Virus record (IMG/VR): IMGVR_UViG_3300037010_000803
Location: 1-56,652 of that record
DNA from: a virus
Strand: one strand, 5' to 3'
DNA length: 56,652 nt
Part shown: in pieces, positions 3,650-56,652 of the stretch
How positions within the stretch are numbered: position 1 is the stretch's first letter
How the letters are laid out: every line of letters begins with the position of its first letter
The notes under the pieces: model-generated
What the model saw: the letters and a program-made list of their open reading frames with translations, nothing else
Databases searched by the model: none
What the model was told of the DNA's origin: nothing
Program-made: the position numbers and the translations under genes

Positions 3650-5917
3650 TTACTCCTCCGAGAGCGGTATGAACGCTCTAGTGCAATTCGGGTGTTCTAT
3701 GGGATTCGCTATCATTTCGTCAACGGTCCAGATTTCGCCATTGACTGCATCACACTCCGCGCAAGACCCAGGGCCATTCCCATCGGAGACTTCGACCCTC
3801 TCGACTCCCTGCGCAGCGTAGTTAGTGCCTGCCCCTACATTGTATGCAACCGCCGTTTCCGTTCTTGCCGTTACCATGGCGCGGGCCGGTGATTCAAGCG
3901 TGTCCTGTAACTCTTTGGCTAAGTCCGTGTAGCTCTTGCCGCTCCTTACCGCCTCGGCTATGGCATTGCGTACCGTCTCGCGCACCGTGTCAGAGACGGC
4001 CAACTCATTGGGATTGTCTATCCACTCGGAGCCGTCCCACTTCATCCCCAATAATGCCGCCGCTCGCTCTTGCGCCCACACCGCCGCGCTGGTCTCACCT
4101 ACGCCCACGAGTTCAGCCGAGTCATCCACCCCGGCGTTATAGACCGCCTCCAGCCATCGTACCAGTGCAGCCCAATCCTCCGGCGGCATATCCGTCGGCC
4201 CCTTGGTCACGAGCTGAGCCTTGCCTTCGGCCAAATACGGCGCAGCCAAATGTCTATAAATGCGCTGCCAGAGTTCCACGCCCGCCTCAGTTAACGGCTT
4301 GGCTCGCTCGCTTGTCTCCCAACGTAATGCTTTACGCGGGCCTTTGAACGCTTTAGCCACATCGCCTTCTGCCAGACATTTCTCCACCCAATATCTAGCA
4401 GCGGGTGTTATCGCCGCGCTGACAAACGGACGCGGCGTCCTACCGTTCTTCGCATCGGCCTTGGCGACCTTCTTCCATCGCGCCAAATCCGCCTTCTGGG
4501 TATTCTCCGGCGGCGCTTCTGGCGGAGGTGCTTCCGGTGGCGTCTTGCTACTGCCTTGCAATGGCACGTAGCCGGTGGGAGTTAACACCATCAGCATGTT
4601 CGCCTCCGGCACATCGGAAGGCGGGTCACCCGCTCTCGCCCTGGCCTCGTTCACACTTCGGATACCCAGTTTGACGAACGCCTCATTTTCCTGTAGTTCC
4701 AGTTGTTTGTTTATCTGCGTTTCGGCTATCCACTCGAAACTGACCTCAGTGAGTCCGAGGTCTTCGTTGATGTATTCGTCCAGGATTTCTTCGATAAAAA
4801 TCTCATGCGGCTCGATACCAGATGCCTGGGACTGATTAGCGTTGCCCTGCCCTGACCGACCTAGCCCGGCGCTCTTCATAATCGGCTCAGGATTTACGCC
4901 GACCACCCATGCCATCGCCCGGAGTATAAGCTCGTCAAACTCATAATCCCACTTCGGCGGTGGAACGGGGATATACGTTGTTCCATCCGGTACAGCTATG
5001 GCCGCCGCCCGTGCCTGCAAATTGCCCTTCATGCGTGAGTCAAGGTATCTCTGGAAGTCCTCACGCTGTTGCATCGTGAAATCTTTCGGAAGGATTAGCC
5101 ATCCGGGTGGAGTGTTGCCAGCCGTGTAGCTGTAGTTCTCTTGCAACGAAGCGTTTATCGCCAGCGTGACCAGAGTCAAGCATTGCTCTACCGCTGAGAA
5201 TCCATAGGGCGTCCAGGAACGCGCATTCATGGGCCGCCAGATTAGTTCATCGGTGGTATATTGCCGCTCTGGGACTCCGTGCAAGTATTGGTAGAACGCG
5301 GCAGCCGGTGGGTCAGGCGGAAGCCCAGCGGCAGTGAGAATCGGCTTGATTTTGGCTGCGTCCATAACTCGCAGCCCCAACGGCTTCCCGCCAACGGTCC
5401 TTCGTTTGCCGAGAGCCACCGCACCAACGACCAGAATGTCTTCAAGCACAGCGTTCAGCCAGTCACCAAATCTCAAATACCCATCGGGCTTTTTCAGCCA
5501 TGCTTCAGCGGCCTGGACATCCGGGCGCTCTGCGTATTTTTCACCCTCTTGCATCTTTAGCGGCCGTATTCCGTGAGGCAGGCCGCGCATCTGCCTTTTT
5601 AGGTCTTCGATAACAAGTCTAATGCCCCAACAGTTGTCAGCCAGTATTCGTAACTGCGATTCACGTGCGCCCGGCTTCGCTTGGTCAGGATTAAACGTTA
5701 GATTGTAGCCAACAGGAATCTCGAATCCGGTCGGCTCCGGGCCAGGACCGCCCAACGGCGGAAGAGGAGCTAATGGCTTGAACGGGAATGGGTCCTTGCC
5801 TTGTGGGGCCGTTGGCAGTTGAGCGTTCTGAAGCCGATTGTTTAGCGACTCCGCGCCTACGGCGTCGCCCGGCTGATTCCCAAACTTTATGTCCAGCGCG
5901 CCGATTGTTATTCTCAT
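3650..5917 (-). CDS. Portal protein fused to a MuF-type minor head domain (unit A)
   Basis: About 755 aa. The ATG overlaps the terminase stop (GTATGAGA) and has SD GGAG five bases away, so the longer in-frame GTG-type extension is unlikely. Residues about 60-450 form the portal through which DNA is packaged; residues about 460-490 are a Pro/Ala/Glu linker. The last 120 residues match the SPP1 gp7 / Mu gpF minor head family, with RTETA, SCAECDAVNG and HPNCTRAF. Portal and MuF are usually two genes; here they are one polypeptide, so the minor head protein would be delivered in fixed ratio with the portal ring. The C-terminal 50 residues differ most from unit B. Confidence 0.88.
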   Translation of the reverse strand: MRITIGALDIKFGNQPGDAVGAESLNNRLQNAQLPTAPQGKDPFPFKPLAPLPPLGGPGPEPTGFEIPVGYNLTFNPDQAKPGARESQLRILADNCWGIRLVIEDLKRQMRGLPHGIRPLKMQEGEKYAERPDVQAAEAWLKKPDGYLRFGDWLNAVLEDILVVGAVALGKRRTVGGKPLGLRVMDAAKIKPILTAAGLPPDPPAAAFYQYLHGVPERQYTTDELIWRPMNARSWTPYGFSAVEQCLTLVTLAINASLQENYSYTAGNTPPGWLILPKDFTMQQREDFQRYLDSRMKGNLQARAAAIAVPDGTTYIPVPPPKWDYEFDELILRAMAWVVGVNPEPIMKSAGLGRSGQGNANQSQASGIEPHEIFIEEILDEYINEDLGLTEVSFEWIAETQINKQLELQENEAFVKLGIRSVNEARARAGDPPSDVPEANMLMVLTPTGYVPLQGSSKTPPEAPPPEAPPENTQKADLARWKKVAKADAKNGRTPRPFVSAAITPAARYWVEKCLAEGDVAKAFKGPRKALRWETSERAKPLTEAGVELWQRIYRHLAAPYLAEGKAQLVTKGPTDMPPEDWAALVRWLEAVYNAGVDDSAELVGVGETSAAVWAQERAAALLGMKWDGSEWIDNPNELAVSDTVRETVRNAIAEAVRSGKSYTDLAKELQDTLESPARAMVTARTETAVAYNVGAGTNYAAQGVERVEVSDGNGPGSCAECDAVNGEIWTVDEMIANPIEHPNCTRAFIPLSEE

Positions 5918-7383
5918 ACGGTCTCCAATTTGGTCTTCATCCATTCCAGGAAATTCGGGTCAGCACTGAAATTCCCCGCAAAGGCCAGTAACAAGGCATC
6001 CGCGTCATCCGGCGAGCGCCCGATTCTCGTTCTGGTCTTCTCCTTGGGCTCCACCTTCACCCTACCTGAGCTATCGGGAGACCATCGCGGCGCTATCAAC
6101 TGCCCTACCGTCTCGTCGTCAAGCTCGGACAGGTCCCAGCCGCCAGATTGCGATAACTCTCTTCCCACTTCCCACCATAGCTGGTCTCGCAGTTTCGGGA
6201 ATCTCGCCGGGTCCGTTGACGCTTCACCCACGTTCACGCCCACCACTTCCGCTCCGTGTTCTGAGCGGAGTTCTTTGAGCCTTCCTACTACGCCCCAGCC
6301 GATTCCGCAAACGTCCACCTTGATTCTGCTTGCGCCGGTCGCTTTAATCGCCTGCACAGCGTATCCGGCGGCTTCCATGGCATCGGGAGTAGCATATCGC
6401 CACGTTCGCCCTGCCTTGGGGCCTCTACGCTCGCGTATGACGGTCATATCACCACCACCGCCAACGTCCATACCAAGCTCCACGGGCAAGAGTTCTTCCG
6501 GCTTATACTCTCTCGGCTTCTGGCATTTCACCACCCACGACCAGGGTACTACCCCGGAAACTGCGTCTTCAGGGAATCGCCCCAGAACGCGGCTAACATA
6601 CCGTGGGTCACTCTCGCCCCATTCCTTCTGGCGCTCTTCCACCCAGAGCTTGCCGGTCAAGAGCTTCAGCACATCCGGCGGGCAGGGCTCCCCAGTAAAG
6701 GCTGGCAGGTCGAGAGCGCTCACCGGAATCACATGCCAGCCACTTCCAGGACGGCATAACTTCGCGAAGTGGCTTAGCGGGTCGTCAGGATTGCCGATTG
6801 CCAGTATTCGGCTCCCTTCCGACGTGACAAGCCCTTCCGCCGCTGTGAATATCTCTTCCGGCACTCCGGCGGCTTCATCCACCACGACCAGGACCTTTTC
6901 AGCGTGAATCCCTTGAAACGCTGTCGGGTCATAGTCAGCGGGCTTGCGCCCAAAGGCTACCAGTTCGCCATTGAGCCGCCACTCGGTCTGATTCATTTCT
7001 CCGAGCGGCGACCTGGCGTGAGCACGATTTAACTCGCGCCACAGAATGGCCCTAACCTGTTGATACGTGGGAGCCGAACTCACCACAAAGGCGCTGCCGA
7101 CCGGGTTTGACGCAATCCACCAGTACATGAGGCGAGCGGCCAGAAAGCTCTTGCCCGTACCATGCGCCGAGGGGACAGCCACGTGCCGGTACTTGACTAT
7201 GGCGTCGGCTATCTCAACCTGGCGGCTCCACAGGTAGCAGTCAAGCACCTGGCGGATGTACTGCGACGGGGACAGGCTCGCCCGCTCGCGTAACCGTTCG
7301 CGGTACTTAAGTAGGGCCGCCGCCCTTTGCGATAGCGAGTAACTCCTCGTCGGTGAGCTTGTTGAGGTCAATATCGAGCTCAT
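5914..7383 (-). CDS. terL: Terminase large subunit (unit A)
   Basis: A 489-aa DNA-packaging motor. Walker A is AHGTGKS near residue 74, Walker B is VLVVVDEA near 165, and the C-terminal RNaseH-like nuclease shows GMDVGGGGD near 310 and DADALLLAF near 465. It pumps DNA into the procapsid and cuts it. The chosen ATG gives a 77-nt overlap with terS. The first 35 residues are not homologous to the unit B copy, so the start is uncertain and a later non-ATG start is possible. Confidence 0.92.
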   Translation of the reverse strand: MSSILTSTSSPTRSYSLSQRAAALLKYRERLRERASLSPSQYIRQVLDCYLWSRQVEIADAIVKYRHVAVPSAHGTGKSFLAARLMYWWIASNPVGSAFVVSSAPTYQQVRAILWRELNRAHARSPLGEMNQTEWRLNGELVAFGRKPADYDPTAFQGIHAEKVLVVVDEAAGVPEEIFTAAEGLVTSEGSRILAIGNPDDPLSHFAKLCRPGSGWHVIPVSALDLPAFTGEPCPPDVLKLLTGKLWVEERQKEWGESDPRYVSRVLGRFPEDAVSGVVPWSWVVKCQKPREYKPEELLPVELGMDVGGGGDMTVIRERRGPKAGRTWRYATPDAMEAAGYAVQAIKATGASRIKVDVCGIGWGVVGRLKELRSEHGAEVVGVNVGEASTDPARFPKLRDQLWWEVGRELSQSGGWDLSELDDETVGQLIAPRWSPDSSGRVKVEPKEKTRTRIGRSPDDADALLLAFAGNFSADPNFLEWMKTKLETV

Positions 7384-7753
7384 GTCTTTCCGCTATCCCC
7401 GCCGCCTTGCGCTCTTGTTCCATTCCCGCGATGACAGTCCGTAACGCCTCGGAGAAAGACTGCGGCTCAGACCGCAAGAGCACCCTTAGTCCGATGTCCT
7501 CCATGGCCCGTGCAATGCGCAACTGCCTTGCCCTGAATTCGGCCTCAGTGGTGCTCACGCGGTTTAGCGTCTTGCTTGCCACCTGCTGGCGGTACGCTGA
7601 CCGCGCTTCAGCCCAATGCTCTTTCGAGGCTCGCCTGCCAACAGTGGCGAAGTTCACCCTGTACTTGGCCGCCAGGCTGCGCTGGGTGACGCTCTCGTCA
7701 CCGGCTATGTATTCTGCCTTGATAGCTTCCCAATTCAATCGCGAAGCTGCCAT
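7307..7753 (-). CDS. terS: Terminase small subunit (unit A)
   Basis: A 148-aa protein starting at MAASRLNW with SD GGGAG upstream; longer extensions lack homology in unit B. Residues 5-40 contain a helix-turn-helix (VTQRSLAAKYRVNFATVGRR) expected to bind the packaging site, and the rest is helical, for oligomerisation. It lies directly before terL. Only residues 1-70 are well conserved with unit B; the C-terminal half is different, as is the facing N-terminus of TerL, so the two interacting ends may have been exchanged together. Confidence 0.85.
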   Translation of the reverse strand: MAASRLNWEAIKAEYIAGDESVTQRSLAAKYRVNFATVGRRASKEHWAEARSAYRQQVASKTLNRVSTTEAEFRARQLRIARAMEDIGLRVLLRSEPQSFSEALRTVIAGMEQERKAAGIAERHELDIDLNKLTDEELLAIAKGGGPT

Positions 7754-7785
7754 ATATCTTCTCCCTGAATCATCATTGCACCCGC

Positions 7786-7814
7786 TTGACTTCCGCTCAA
7801 TTTGGTGCCATATT
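7786..7814 (+). promoter_or_regulatory. Plus-strand promoter for the 7,833 gene
   Basis: TTGACT (7,786-7,791), exactly 17 bp, then CATATT (7,809-7,814). This is the only clear plus-strand promoter I found. It reads straight into a GGAGGT ribosome-binding site (7,823-7,828) and an ATG at 7,833. Confidence 0.6.
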
Positions 7815-7832
7815 CTTCCCCTGGAGGTGCAT

Positions 7833-8162
7833 ATGGCCAACCGCAATCACAGGCACTTGCCTCATATCCCCGCTGGGATGGACAGCCCAATAGCCGCGAG
7901 TCGTGACCGCGCCATCTATGCGGAGGCATCCGACGCTGCCCTGCTTGCTCGCCGCGACGCCACTCCCATACTCGCCCCAAAATCAGCACCGCAATCAGCG
8001 CCAAAGCCCAGGCCGGAGCCCGCAGCCCGTGCAATCCAAGGCATTAGGCTGCGCATCGGCGGCTTGGCGAAAGCAAGCCGCGAGGCGGGGCTGCTAGAAC
8101 TGGCTAGTGCGCTTGAGGCACTACTCCCCATGGTCTCCGAGGCCGCGCGAGAATCTCACTAA
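7833..8162 (+). CDS. Plus-strand orphan gene (moron-like), unknown function
   Basis: A 109-aa protein with SD GGAGGT four bases before the ATG and its own promoter. The N-terminal third is His/Arg-rich, the middle is a Pro/Ala-rich linker (about residues 47-65), and residues about 70-105 are an amphipathic helical segment. I recognise no family. It opposes every other gene, overlaps the 3' end of the radical-SAM gene by 59 nt tail-to-tail, and is absent from unit B, where terS directly abuts the ParB-methyltransferase gene. Independent promoter, opposite strand and presence in only one unit are classic signs of a phage moron. Confidence 0.55.
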   Translation: MANRNHRHLPHIPAGMDSPIAASRDRAIYAEASDAALLARRDATPILAPKSAPQSAPKPRPEPAARAIQGIRLRIGGLAKASREAGLLELASALEALLPMVSEAARESH

Positions 8163-9309
8163 GACTCGCGCTGCCCAGCAAGTCTGGGAAACGCCTGCCC
8201 ACAGCATCCAACAGCTTCCCGTTGTCCTTCTCATTTCGCAATCCCCAAGCAAACGCCACTTGCTCCGGTGTCTTGGCGCGCTGCATCACTGTTCGCCAAG
8301 AGGAGTGCGCCATGTACTTCACGGGATGCACCCTGATTCTTCGATTCTTGCGCTGCGCGGCGCTGAATAAGCGCTTCCCGTCCATAGGGACCTTGGCCCT
8401 GATGTCAAAGTCATGCATCGGCGTGAACGGCTGCGGGTCCAAGTAGGTGAATATCAGGTGAATGCGCGGCGTCAACGCCCCATCAGCTGGAAAACAATCC
8501 AGGATGCTCTCTATATCTTCTTGCGTTTCAACCCCGGCAATAAAGTAGCAAGCCGCCTCCTTCTTCTCCCTCTTGGTCCTGTTCACAAACTCCGTGATTA
8601 CCTCCGGGGCCAGCGGCTTCGCCATGTTCTTGCGCATGGACTCGCTTGCAAACTCTATCCCCGTTCGTATCTGCCTACCAGCGGTGACCCTCCCAGCCGC
8701 ATAATCTGCGACCTTCACGTCTAACGCGCCCAGGCGCGCCGTAAGAGACGGGGCCATCTTATAGGGCCAGTAGGAACACATCGGGAATAGTTTGGCATTG
8801 GGCGGGAGAAACCTGATTGCCCTCTCCACCAACGCCTGCGGGGCGAATTGATATTCCCGCGAATGGCTCAGACAACAGAACTTGCACCGCATCGGGCATC
8901 CTTTGCCCGTGTAGTAGTAGAAAGCGTTCGCCGTCACCCTCACGATTGGATTGTCGGCGTAGTCTATACGTTCATTGAACGCGCCCGCTCGCCTCACGTC
9001 CTCGATATCCTTCGCCCGCGCAAATGCCGCCATAAAGTCGTAAGCCTCGCCTTCGCATACCGCATCGGCTACGGCCCTCACGCATCCGAATCTGGCTATG
9101 AATCCACCCGCCACCACGGGCCGCCCAAACCTCTTGGCGGCAAGGAGCGTCCCATATTCGGTGATGTCACACATCGAAACCCAGACGCAATCCGCGTCCT
9201 GGGGCGTTTTTGCGAATTCAATACCATGCTTCCGCGCAAGGTGATACAAGAGATGCGTCGTATATTCATTCCTCTGGACAGGTAGGAGATGAAAATACGG
9301 CTTCAGCAT
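8104..9309 (-). CDS. Cobalamin-domain-like radical-SAM enzyme
   Basis: 401 aa from an ATG overlapping the ParB stop (ATGCTGA), indicating translational coupling. Residues about 40-95 resemble a B12-binding Rossmann-like domain (VVAGG near 65, CEGEAYDF near 85), although the DxHxxG cobalamin-ligand motif is not visible. The radical-SAM iron-sulfur motif is C138-PMR-C142-KF-C145. This architecture is typical of enzymes that methylate or rearrange unreactive carbons. In a phage, beside a ParB-like protein and where unit B has a DNA methyltransferase, DNA hypermodification is one possible role; protein or RNA modification cannot be excluded. Present in unit A only. Confidence 0.78.
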   Translation of the reverse strand: MLKPYFHLLPVQRNEYTTHLLYHLARKHGIEFAKTPQDADCVWVSMCDITEYGTLLAAKRFGRPVVAGGFIARFGCVRAVADAVCEGEAYDFMAAFARAKDIEDVRRAGAFNERIDYADNPIVRVTANAFYYYTGKGCPMRCKFCCLSHSREYQFAPQALVERAIRFLPPNAKLFPMCSYWPYKMAPSLTARLGALDVKVADYAAGRVTAGRQIRTGIEFASESMRKNMAKPLAPEVITEFVNRTKREKKEAACYFIAGVETQEDIESILDCFPADGALTPRIHLIFTYLDPQPFTPMHDFDIRAKVPMDGKRLFSAAQRKNRRIRVHPVKYMAHSSWRTVMQRAKTPEQVAFAWGLRNEKDNGKLLDAVGRRFPDLLGSASLSEILARPRRPWGVVPQAH

Positions 9310-9992
9310 TTCAATATGGCGCGCAAGGCGTCGCAAAGCACCTCTTCGAGAGTCTCCCCGGCGTCCACGCGCTCTTGCAAGTGCGCCTCAGCCTCTTGGA
9401 GGAGGTCTAACGGGACCGGAGCGGAAATGGCACCCACAGAAAAGAACCCGGTTCCCTTTGCCCTGGCGGTGAAATAATTCTGGCCCTGCTCGCGTCGCTC
9501 TGCGGTGGCGTCCACAATGGACGGCGGGGCAATGGTAGCCAGTAGCGCGTCAATTTCCGCGCCCATGTTCGGGATGTCACGCAAGAGCGCTTCCAGCTTC
9601 TCATTGTCCGTCCCTGCCATGGCTGAAAGCGGGTCCAGCGTGGCAAGAATCAGATTCTCTTCTTCCTCGCTCAGGTCCACGTAAAGCACGGGAACGGTCT
9701 TTTCATTCCGGCTAATCGCCATTGCCACTCTTAGGTGGCCGTCCACAACGTGGCCCGTCTTCCTGTTGACGATTATCCTGGTCACCCAGCCCACCTTGTC
9801 TAGCACGGCGGCCAGGGCGTTCTCTTGCTCGTGACTATGAACGCGCCAATTCGACGGATTTGCGAGTAGCTTCTCCGGCGCTTCTTCGCCTTCCCCCACA
9901 ATCCGATTCTGCCATTCTACTTTGCTGGCTTTTCCCAACGCTGGCCCCCAATAAAACAACACCGTGCATCTCAGCACGGCGCAAAAGTCCAC
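9303..9992 (-). CDS. ParB-like nuclease-domain protein (unit A)
   Basis: The ParB/sulfiredoxin-like domain spans about residues 40-110 with DGHLR in place of the GHRR box, followed by a helical segment. The last 70 residues (from about 160) are unlike unit B, where a methyltransferase domain follows instead. The GTG at 9,992 lies almost at the predicted transcription start, and the first codons form a stem-loop whose loop varies between units. The true start may therefore be the in-frame TTG at 9,938, after GGGGG. ParB-like domains of this kind are often fused to or paired with phage DNA-modifying enzymes, which fits the coupled radical-SAM gene. Confidence 0.75.
   Translation of the reverse strand: MDFCAVLRCTVLFYWGPALGKASKVEWQNRIVGEGEEAPEKLLANPSNWRVHSHEQENALAAVLDKVGWVTRIIVNRKTGHVVDGHLRVAMAISRNEKTVPVLYVDLSEEEENLILATLDPLSAMAGTDNEKLEALLRDIPNMGAEIDALLATIAPPSIVDATAERREQGQNYFTARAKGTGFFSVGAISAPVPLDLLQEAEAHLQERVDAGETLEEVLCDALRAILKC
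9962..9979 (-). promoter_or_regulatory. Leader stem-loop after the parB promoter (unit A)
   Basis: CCGTGC and GCACGG form a 6-bp stem with loop TGAGAT on the minus strand, followed by TGTTGTTTTATT. In unit B (43,563-43,580) the stem is identical and the loop is CTGAAA. It begins about 12 nt after the predicted transcription start. It could be an attenuator or a 5' stabilising hairpin. Confidence 0.6.
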
Positions 9993-9998
9993 GATGGT

Positions 9999-10027
9999 AA
10001 TATAATGCTTTTGTTTTGCTTTGTCAA
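9999..10027 (-). promoter_or_regulatory. Promoter upstream of parB (unit A)
   Basis: Minus-strand TTGACA (10,027-10,022), 17 bp, TATATT (10,004-9,999). It would drive parB, the radical-SAM gene and probably the terminase/head operon. The counterpart is at 43,600-43,628. Confidence 0.8.
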
Positions 10028-20794: not shown

Positions 20795-21012
20795 GTCGCC
20801 GTCGCTTCGACGCTGGCGAGTTCCCCAGGCTCGCCCGCAGCCATCTGGCCGCGCCCAATTAACGTGCCGCCTATCCACACGGAGGCCGGGGGCAACGTGT
20901 GGCTTAGACTTGGATTGACAAAGAGAAAGCCCTGGGGCTGTCGGACCCAGGGCGTGGACAGTCGCAGGGACGCGAGTAGCTGCGACGACTTGTATTCAAT
21001 TTTCGTTCTCAC
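20788..21012 (-). CDS. First early gene, unknown function (unit A)
   Basis: 74 aa from GTG with SD AAAGGTGG six bases upstream, about 40 nt after the early promoter start. Basic N-terminus, LRLSTPWVRQPQGFLFVNPS, then a beta-rich segment (PPASVWIGGTLIGRGQ) and an acidic end. The PWVRQPQGF segment is the only part retained near the right edge of the window (56,600-56,652). Function unknown; first-expressed genes often take over host processes. Confidence 0.6.
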   Translation of the reverse strand: MRTKIEYKSSQLLASLRLSTPWVRQPQGFLFVNPSLSHTLPPASVWIGGTLIGRGQMAAGEPGELASVEATATA

Positions 21013-54691: not shown

Positions 54692-55204
54692 TCAGGAATC
54701 CTTAACAACTGGCCCAATCACCTCGCGAAACTCATACAACTTGGCGCAGTATTTCACGGCGTCCTTCCAGGGCAGATGGAACTTGCGGATTGTCGGAAGC
54801 GCCGGGGCTTCAGGGTATCTGCCGGAATCCCACAACTGGCGCAAGAGCTTCTTCGAGAAAATGAATAGATGCCGGTAGTTCCCTTGAATATAAAGCCAAG
54901 TGTTGTCATCGCGCAAAATCCCCGAAGGCGTCCACGACGGCATATCTGCGCGGCTCTTCTCGTATAACTCTATGCTTAGATTCCCCGTACCATAGCTTCC
55001 CGGCCCGCTGCGTTCATCGAACTTGATTTCAAATCCCTGCAAGTTCTCGCCGACCTCTATTTGGTATTTCATGCTACACAAGTTTTGTAGCACAATATGG
55101 TCCCGCGCCAAGGTAGAGCATACGAAATCCTGGAACGCAAGGCCGGTCTGAAATGACTCCGGGCGGCGCTCGTTTGGGTAGCTAGGCTTCGTTGCCGTAA
55201 ACAT
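54692..55204 (-). CDS. Nuclease-like protein paired with ParB-MT-A70 (unit B)
   Basis: 170 aa from MFTATKPSYPNE, SD GGAGG, overlapping the methyltransferase 3' end by 23 nt. VGENLQGFEIKFDE (near 52-65) resembles the GxExK strand of PD-(D/E)xK nuclease folds, and DNTWLYIQGNYRHLFIFSKK fits the following beta-strands. Located behind a DNA methyltransferase, it could be a restriction-type partner, but the motif alone is weak evidence. In unit A only its last 12 codons remain. Confidence 0.6.
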   Translation of the reverse strand: MFTATKPSYPNERRPESFQTGLAFQDFVCSTLARDHIVLQNLCSMKYQIEVGENLQGFEIKFDERSGPGSYGTGNLSIELYEKSRADMPSWTPSGILRDDNTWLYIQGNYRHLFIFSKKLLRQLWDSGRYPEAPALPTIRKFHLPWKDAVKYCAKLYEFREVIGPVVKDS

Positions 55205-56348
55205 CCCATCCCTCCACTTTCGTTCTGGCGAATAGCTCAACACGCTTCCCGCTTGGGTAGAGCGTGTCAATGATGGCCCGGAATGTCTCCGGCTTCTTGC
55301 TGTGCTCAGTCCGCTCTTCACTGACTACGCTGTCAAAGAGCTTGCGAACTTCCGGCTGGCAACTGCCCTTGACGCATATCAAGAGGAACTCATGCCTCAC
55401 GCTGTTGTAGTGGCCCATGTTATGCTTGATTTTATCCCACACGAAGGAAGACTTGTACTTGAATCCCCACGCCTTCACGACCTCGAAGGCTTCTTCGAGA
55501 ATAGGACTCGTGGCCCACAGAAACAAGACGGCGTTGTCTTCAGTGATTCCGCTTATAGGAAGCGCGCAGATTTCAGCTAGGGACATGACGGGGTAGTAAT
55601 CCCTTGGCTCTGTTGAGCCTTCCGGCATTGTATTCCCATAAGACCACGGCGGGTCAGCATAAATCACCCTGTACTTGGCATCGGGCAGGCTGGCCTTCTT
55701 CGTGATTTCTTCAGCCTTTTCTTGCCGTAGCACTTCCGTGAGCTTGGCATCCCCATTCAGGATGGCCTTTGCTTTCTCCGGCGCTTTTTCTAGCAGCGCC
55801 GCCGCCTTTACTATCGCGGCCCTTGGTGGTGCAACTCCGGCCACCACCTTCTTTTCAATGGACTTGTCCACGGCCTTGGTCTTTTCCACTGCTTCCGCGA
55901 ATTGCCCGGCGCGCTTGACCGTTTTAGGGTCCACGCCAAACTCATCGGCCAGCCGCTCGGCCTGATTCACCGGGGGGACATTTTGTCCCCCCGATTTTTG
56001 ATTTCCATGGCCACCATCATGTCTCTTCGTTCTGTTGTAGCACCGGCCCATGAGTAGATGGCGCTGGTCAGGCTTGAGATTCCGGCGGCCCAACTGATTC
56101 CGGTCAATCCAATCCATGGCCGCGTCCCTGTCAGCGCAATCCACTTCCGTGATTTCGTATTCCAGCCCGTGCTTTTTTGCTATCTCTAGCCTGTTGTGGC
56201 CGTCCAGAAGAATCCATTCACCACGCCAAACTTTCACGGCGTCCAGAATACCGTCGCGTAGAATGTTAGCTTCTAGCTGTGAATACTCTTCATCGGTCAA
56301 GGGTGGAATCAAGGCTTTGAACTCAGGGTCAATACGAATCGGCTCCAT
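55182..56348 (-). CDS. ParB-MT-A70 fusion, m6A DNA methyltransferase (unit B)
   Basis: 388 aa. ParB-N domain about 1-95 with LLDGHNRLEIA at 47, a helical KorB-like linker about 95-215, then an MT-A70 methyltransferase: YADPPWSYG near 230 and LFLWATSP near 273. MT-A70 enzymes make N6-methyladenine. The ParB part may direct it to sites or DNA ends. It is the second gene of the early region here and has no counterpart in unit A, which instead has the HNH-linked methyltransferase. Confidence 0.88.
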   Translation of the reverse strand: MEPIRIDPEFKALIPPLTDEEYSQLEANILRDGILDAVKVWRGEWILLDGHNRLEIAKKHGLEYEITEVDCADRDAAMDWIDRNQLGRRNLKPDQRHLLMGRCYNRTKRHDGGHGNQKSGGQNVPPVNQAERLADEFGVDPKTVKRAGQFAEAVEKTKAVDKSIEKKVVAGVAPPRAAIVKAAALLEKAPEKAKAILNGDAKLTEVLRQEKAEEITKKASLPDAKYRVIYADPPWSYGNTMPEGSTEPRDYYPVMSLAEICALPISGITEDNAVLFLWATSPILEEAFEVVKAWGFKYKSSFVWDKIKHNMGHYNSVRHEFLLICVKGSCQPEVRKLFDSVVSEERTEHSKKPETFRAIIDTLYPSGKRVELFARTKVEGWDVYGNEA

Positions 56349-56652
56349 CTCGGTCTCCTTTTTTTCTTCAAGCTACACCGCCCCCAATCCCTAATCATAA
56401 CTACGAAGCAATGCAGTAGCAGAATCAGTCTAGCGCGGTACAGATTCTATGATTTTGGACCAGGACGCTGGGGACGGTGCAGGATCAACTACCTGCTCGT
56501 TGCCTGGATTTGCTAGACAAGCCGTACGTTTTGGGCTCAGGAGACATACGGACTCAGACACCCGCCGATTTCTCGGACTGCATTTTATGTCGTGGGAAAT
56601 GAAGAAGCCCTGGGGCTGTCGGACCCAGGGCCTGAACAGTCGCGGTGAAAGG
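56349..56652. other. Upstream early region of unit B, cut by the window edge
   Basis: About 300 bp with no securely supported gene. A minus-strand frame 56,652-56,430, cut by the edge, begins with RLFRPWVRQPQGFF, matching the PWVRQPQGF segment of the unit A first early gene, then diverges completely before a TAG; it may be the end of that gene. The stretch 56,607-56,631 is an 8-bp inverted repeat GCCCTGGG/CCCAGGGC encoded by the same codons. The promoter and iterons of unit B would lie beyond the edge. Confidence 0.4.

Follow-up and report, generated by a model that had tools for sequence, protein, structure and literature searches.

The window analysed in our study, the whole stretch of 56,652 nucleotides, is virus record IMGVR_UViG_3300037010_000803 from end to end. 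This 56.6-kb record is whole and linear and was found to carry two related phage units, A and B. In a DNA comparison of the two units, structural and terminase genes matched over about 7.2 kb at 90% identity, and further blocks matched mostly at 81–93% identity. A 39-bp repeat (95%) was present at the ends of unit B (window 20927–20965 and 56605–56643). Tandem prophages at one site and an assembly join are both possible explanations of two related units in tandem on one record. The cassette of unit A, the terminase genes that follow it and the unit B counterpart contained the following features.

9999–10027, minus strand: sigma-70-like promoter TTGACA-N17-TATATT ahead of parB, read from the sequence and nearly identical in unit B
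9303–9992, minus strand: parB-A, a short ParB-type protein (phrog_620 ParB-like, E 1.7e-16; phrog_498, E 1.8e-19)
9543–9920, minus strand: ParB/Srx-type domain, 96% identical to that of unit B at the amino acid level (A/B comparison)
9303–9542, minus strand: variable tail at the C-terminus of parB-A, with no relation to unit B
8104–9309, minus strand: radical-SAM (rSAM) enzyme of 401 amino acids from the likely start ATG 9309 (ORF 8104–9336), with a 7-nt overlap with the stop of parB
8980–9309, minus strand: predicted N-terminal cobalamin-binding-type Rossmann domain of the rSAM enzyme, from the profile and fold of a homologue (L129)
8875–8898, minus strand: CPMRCKFC, the CxxxCxxC iron-sulfur cluster motif of the rSAM enzyme, with cysteines invariant in eight homologues
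7307–7846, minus strand: terminase small subunit (phrog_1206, E 4e-7)
5914–7383, minus strand: terminase large subunit, by similarity to annotated phage terminases
42304–43593, minus strand: unit B counterpart, ParB fused to an N4/N6 DNA methyltransferase (Pfam E 6e-25; phrog_498 E 4e-99)

The two units shared 93.4% DNA identity from 10074 to 9544, a stretch that contains the promoter, the leader and the ParB domain, whereas in the DNA comparison homology was undetectable from 9544 until 7753, within the small terminase gene. The exchange therefore begins within parB, after about 150 residues of the ORF, where the initial annotation had placed it, and since the identity is high and the break is sharp, the swap is not due to chance. 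The same annotation had described a ParB protein fused to a methyltransferase ahead of the terminase in unit B, which was borne out by the Pfam N6_N4_Mtase and phrog_498 matches, and a ParB with a different C-terminus followed by an rSAM gene in unit A, where both ORFs were found to be present and intact. The terminase genes come next in both units, after the rSAM gene in unit A and after the ParB-methyltransferase fusion in unit B. L006 (4695–6247), which is closely related to the window phage (terminase 87%), was devoid of the parB cassette; its slot contained a 172-aa ORF and a different gene ahead of the large terminase.

The likely start of parB-A is either TTG 9938, which has GGGGG upstream of it, or GTG 9992. 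In addition to the two profiles listed above, parB-A matched phrog_930 (2e-8) of the ParB/Srx superfamily; in Pfam, it had no ParB match above the cut-off, and ParB_N had no match at all in the window. A fused methyltransferase domain, the mark of a ParB-methylase, was present in unit B and absent from parB-A. The ATG of the rSAM gene overlaps the parB stop by 7 nt (AAATGCTGAAG), and such an overlap usually points to translational coupling. A conserved stem, GCCGTGC...GCACGG, was present downstream of the promoter and ahead of the likely start of parB (window 9940–9992 and, in unit B, the corresponding stretch upstream of 43521), with a loop that differs between units A and B; it is possibly a leader hairpin or an attenuator. 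At the far end of unit B (window 55182–56348), a second ParB-like protein was seemingly fused to an MT-A70-like methyltransferase.

A first viral scan with the single rSAM protein of the window found nothing, and relatives were recovered through a ParB search followed by family alignments. The rSAM gene together with an overlapping or adjoining ParB gene was found in eight further, divergent loci of viruses or prophages: L062 (L002/L062), L063, L126, L127, L129, L130, a prophage in a Eubacteriales genome (L096) and L060, which ends 160 bases into the rSAM gene. The initial annotation had proposed a search for the same gene pair in other phages, and these loci, most of them with the pair upstream of terminase, answer it. 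In every member with upstream flank, the ParB-type gene ends at or just within the rSAM gene; L126 retains only the end of the upstream gene, whose tail is the same as that of the ParBs of L060, L062 and L063. Terminase genes were present downstream in L062, L126, L127, L129 and L130, and one gene further on in L096, some of these identifications being our own reading of the sequences. The family was thus accompanied by ParB in every case and by terminase in most. The ParBs of these loci fall in several branches, and the rSAM gene was therefore joined to ParB in quite different phages. Sequence searches of cultured phage and plasmid records found no member of the family, nor was it present in any other genome among 103 of the family of the L096 host. 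Matches of about 600 amino acids in Eubacteriales genomes and in two faecal "phage" records were set aside, as in our reading they look like a chromosomal rSAM of the TIGR03960 type.

Taken alone, the rSAM protein of the window gave only weak profile matches (Pfam Radical_SAM 19.4 bits against a cut-off of 29.5), and its best NCBIfam match was ApyD, a RiPP-peptide enzyme. Among the family members, Radical_SAM was matched at E ≤ 0.05 in seven of eight (best 8.7e-10). Identities within the family ranged between 20 and 56%, and those of the window protein to the rest between 20 and 29%. The cysteines of CxxxCxxC, the GG of the Rossmann part and the barrel residues R, G, E, E, R and K at 215–231 were invariant. 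The invariant cysteines, the Pfam matches of the members and the fold matches together place CxxxCxxC in an rSAM barrel, as in the radical SAM superfamily. The B12-binding Pfam was matched in two of eight members, in L129 below the cut-off (E 5e-4), and the B12-binding rSAM families TIGR04013 and TIGR04014 of NCBIfam matched several members (TIGR04013 at 1.5e-12 in one homologue).

The model of the window protein itself was poor (pLDDT 51) and was set aside; an AlphaFold model of the homologue L129, which is 29% identical to the window protein, was used instead (pLDDT 78, pTM 0.75). It contained an N-terminal Rossmann domain followed by an rSAM barrel, the arrangement of B12-dependent rSAM enzymes. 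Its best alignments were to MgmA (Z 12.4, 309 residues, rmsd 8.9), TokK (10.6), TsrM (10.5) and CysS (10.5), followed by OxsB (9.1), MiaB (8.9) and RimO (8.2). The large full-length rmsd probably reflects domains that lie in differing relative positions in the model. With the cobalamin-dependent rSAM methylases MgmA (9ccb), TokK, TsrM and CysS, the family has in common the predicted two-domain fold, CxxxCxxC and distant profile matches, whereas the identity in structural alignment is 11–13%. Because of the L129 fold and the B12-rSAM profile matches, the term cobalamin-type used in the initial annotation is right at the level of the fold, and we take cobalamin to be the probable cofactor. MiaB and RimO also have an overall fold similar to that of the family and a weak profile match, but their Z scores lie below those of the top cobalamin enzymes. 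The cysteines of the methylthiotransferase auxiliary cluster were not kept in the family alignment: of the three positions, one is mostly Cys, and the cysteine of GGC is replaced by His or another residue. A MiaB/RimO methylthiotransferase reading was rejected since these cysteines are missing.

When the ParB domain was used alone as the query, 80 viral loci were recovered. ParB occurred in two forms, one joined to an N4/N6 methyltransferase in a single protein and the other short, in most cases with a partner gene overlapping its own. Counted as distinct sequences, the partners overlapping short ParBs were 10 TAGT (TET-associated glycosyltransferase), 4 C5-methyltransferase, 2 TET/JBP, 2 DpdA-type (queuine-transferase) and 1 Mom; the remaining ones were 2 ABC-GNAT, 2 without assignment and 4 rSAM. 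Strict base-modification families made up 19 of the 23 non-rSAM partners versus 3 of the 47 genes upstream of parB, which were mixed and in which the three were DNA methyltransferases (Fisher p 2e-10, a guide only because the loci are related to each other and the sequences are not independent). Several further rSAM types were found at this place: one with B12-binding and Radical_SAM_N2 domains in L070, another type in L054, one weakly similar to the photolyase group in L053, 164 bp from its ParB, and an rSAM-like domain fused to ParB in L066 (Pfam E 0.012, CxxxCxxC). That rSAM enzymes have entered a base-modification slot repeatedly is the strongest argument for regarding the rSAM of the window as a DNA modifier.

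The tails of the ParBs were alike in six rSAM loci (L060, L062, L063, L126, L127 and L129), partly across ParB branches, which suggests that the tail is a docking part. One docking tail common to all rSAM partners was unsupported, since in a search with a tail HMM the tails of unit A, L130 and L096 did not score above shuffled sequences. Zinc-ribbon-like tails, with two CxxC pairs or one, were present in the ParBs of L030, L078, L092, L016, L029 and L036, and the partners of these were a C5-methyltransferase, a PP-loop protein or none assigned.

We consider it fairly likely that the cassette is a version of a modular phage DNA-modification system, in which ParB guides or accompanies an rSAM enzyme that modifies the phage DNA. 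The initial annotation had proposed that a different chemistry is plugged into a ParB-linked DNA-modification slot, and the TAGT, C5-methyltransferase, TET/JBP, Mom and DpdA-type occupants support this by context. The constant half would be the conserved ParB/Srx-type protein, expressed from its own promoter, and the variable half a modifying enzyme, either fused to ParB or made by translational coupling; in unit A, the cobalamin-type rSAM would substitute for the N4/N6 methyltransferase found in unit B. Most probably, ParB would load on the phage DNA and deliver the rSAM enzyme before packaging, or would aid its movement along the DNA or the opening of the DNA. Cobalamin-dependent rSAM methylases such as MgmA, TokK and CysS work by radical abstraction followed by transfer of a methyl group from methylcobalamin to an unactivated carbon. 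The radical enzyme probably puts a chemical mark on phage DNA, which would be a carbon-centred modification of a base or sugar, most simply a C-methylation where ordinary methyltransferases cannot reach, and before or during packaging this mark could shield the genome against host nucleases.

The case for DNA modification is one of guilt by association, and the closest solved structure, MgmA, methylates a protein, namely at a glutamine. To our knowledge, the substrates of cobalamin-dependent rSAM methylases are proteins or small molecules, and none is DNA. Radical SAM chemistry on DNA has precedents in the rSAM enzymes of phage thymidine hypermodification and in spore photoproduct lyase, neither of which is of the cobalamin type. 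The main rival, which we regard as doubtful but which keeps its place because MgmA acts on protein, is that the rSAM modifies a phage protein, e.g., the ParB tail (as a substrate or leader peptide) or the small terminase, both encoded by genes flanking it. The match to ApyD, a peptide-modifying enzyme, and the similar tails of several rSAM-linked ParBs also point to a protein, whereas DNA bases are the target of the other enzymes in the slot and the tails track non-rSAM partners such as TAGT as well, as expected of docking parts. The tail of unit A, which does not match those of other rSAM-linked ParBs, speaks both against a conserved tail substrate and against the DNA reading.

Modification of tRNA or another RNA in the manner of MiaB or RimO, aiding the phage in infection, is unlikely: the weak profile matches and the Foldseek matches to MiaB are offset by the three auxiliary-cluster cysteines that are not conserved, by the higher scores of the cobalamin-type enzymes in a structural second look and by the tight linkage of the rSAM to ParB and terminase. 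The presence of PP-loop and TGT-type partners in the slot implies that some phages modify bases in several steps, and the rSAM might accordingly act on a free nucleotide or make a precursor for a later enzyme, with a purely regulatory link to ParB; we hold this quite improbable, as among the genes noted beside the rSAM in unit A, which is truncated, none of a precursor pathway was recognised. That the arrangement is decayed or fortuitous and without function is very improbable indeed: the window rSAM is a divergent member (20–29% identity), but its frame is open, all invariant residues are kept and the overlapping pair was found again in unrelated phages, with eight further loci in all.

Both ParB-methylases and base-modification genes of phages are already known. 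The ParB-methylases (phrog_498) contain the same ParB/Srx-type domain as unit A, and unit B encodes one at the same place upstream of terminase; in these an N4/N6 (adenine) methyltransferase is fused to ParB, whereas unit A contains a separate, overlapping rSAM gene. The TET/JBP, TAGT, Mom, DpdA-type and C5-methyltransferase enzymes are found at the same position in related viral loci, following a short ParB, but their chemistry is unrelated and none is a cobalamin-type rSAM. Bce_0392 of Bacillus cereus is presented as a ParB-methylase fusion (PMC5512222), and nuclease and nucleotidase activities of ParB/Srx proteins, with a nicking activity in a ParB-methylase, have been reported (PMC5512222). 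No description of the ParB-rSAM pairing, or of ParB as a platform that swaps many enzymes, was found in the literature searched; key papers lay outside it, and an earlier mention is possible. If the DNA reading is true, ParB-type proteins would serve phages as a general chassis for DNA-modifying chemistry, and could be used as a search key for DNA modifications as yet unknown. A radical enzyme of the cobalamin type acting on DNA would add a new class of reaction on DNA, and its mark could escape restriction systems that are tuned to known marks.

Some further features of the ParB loci were noted. The ABC-GNAT partners and those of L069 (4500–5177) and L089 (4581–5186), an unassigned family that overlaps parB, are at most candidate DNA modifiers, which is a point against the DNA reading. 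In L069, a DLDPYG motif suggests, in our reading, a methyltransferase reminiscent of the guanine-N2 methyltransferases. The record of L003 contained, at L065 3438–5731, a ParB-methyltransferase and, after it, another ParB that carries a fused DUF4417 (Pfam E 2e-46); DUF4417 may be another DNA-modifying or DNA-acting enzyme. Phage genes for S-adenosylmethionine synthetase were found upstream of the ParB-methyltransferase genes in L021, L058 and L061. In L016 (2820–5551), a class III aminotransferase, a ParB with the zinc-ribbon-like tail and a PP-loop ATPase (Asn synthase/QueC-like) lie in a row and form a candidate multi-step base-modification pathway.
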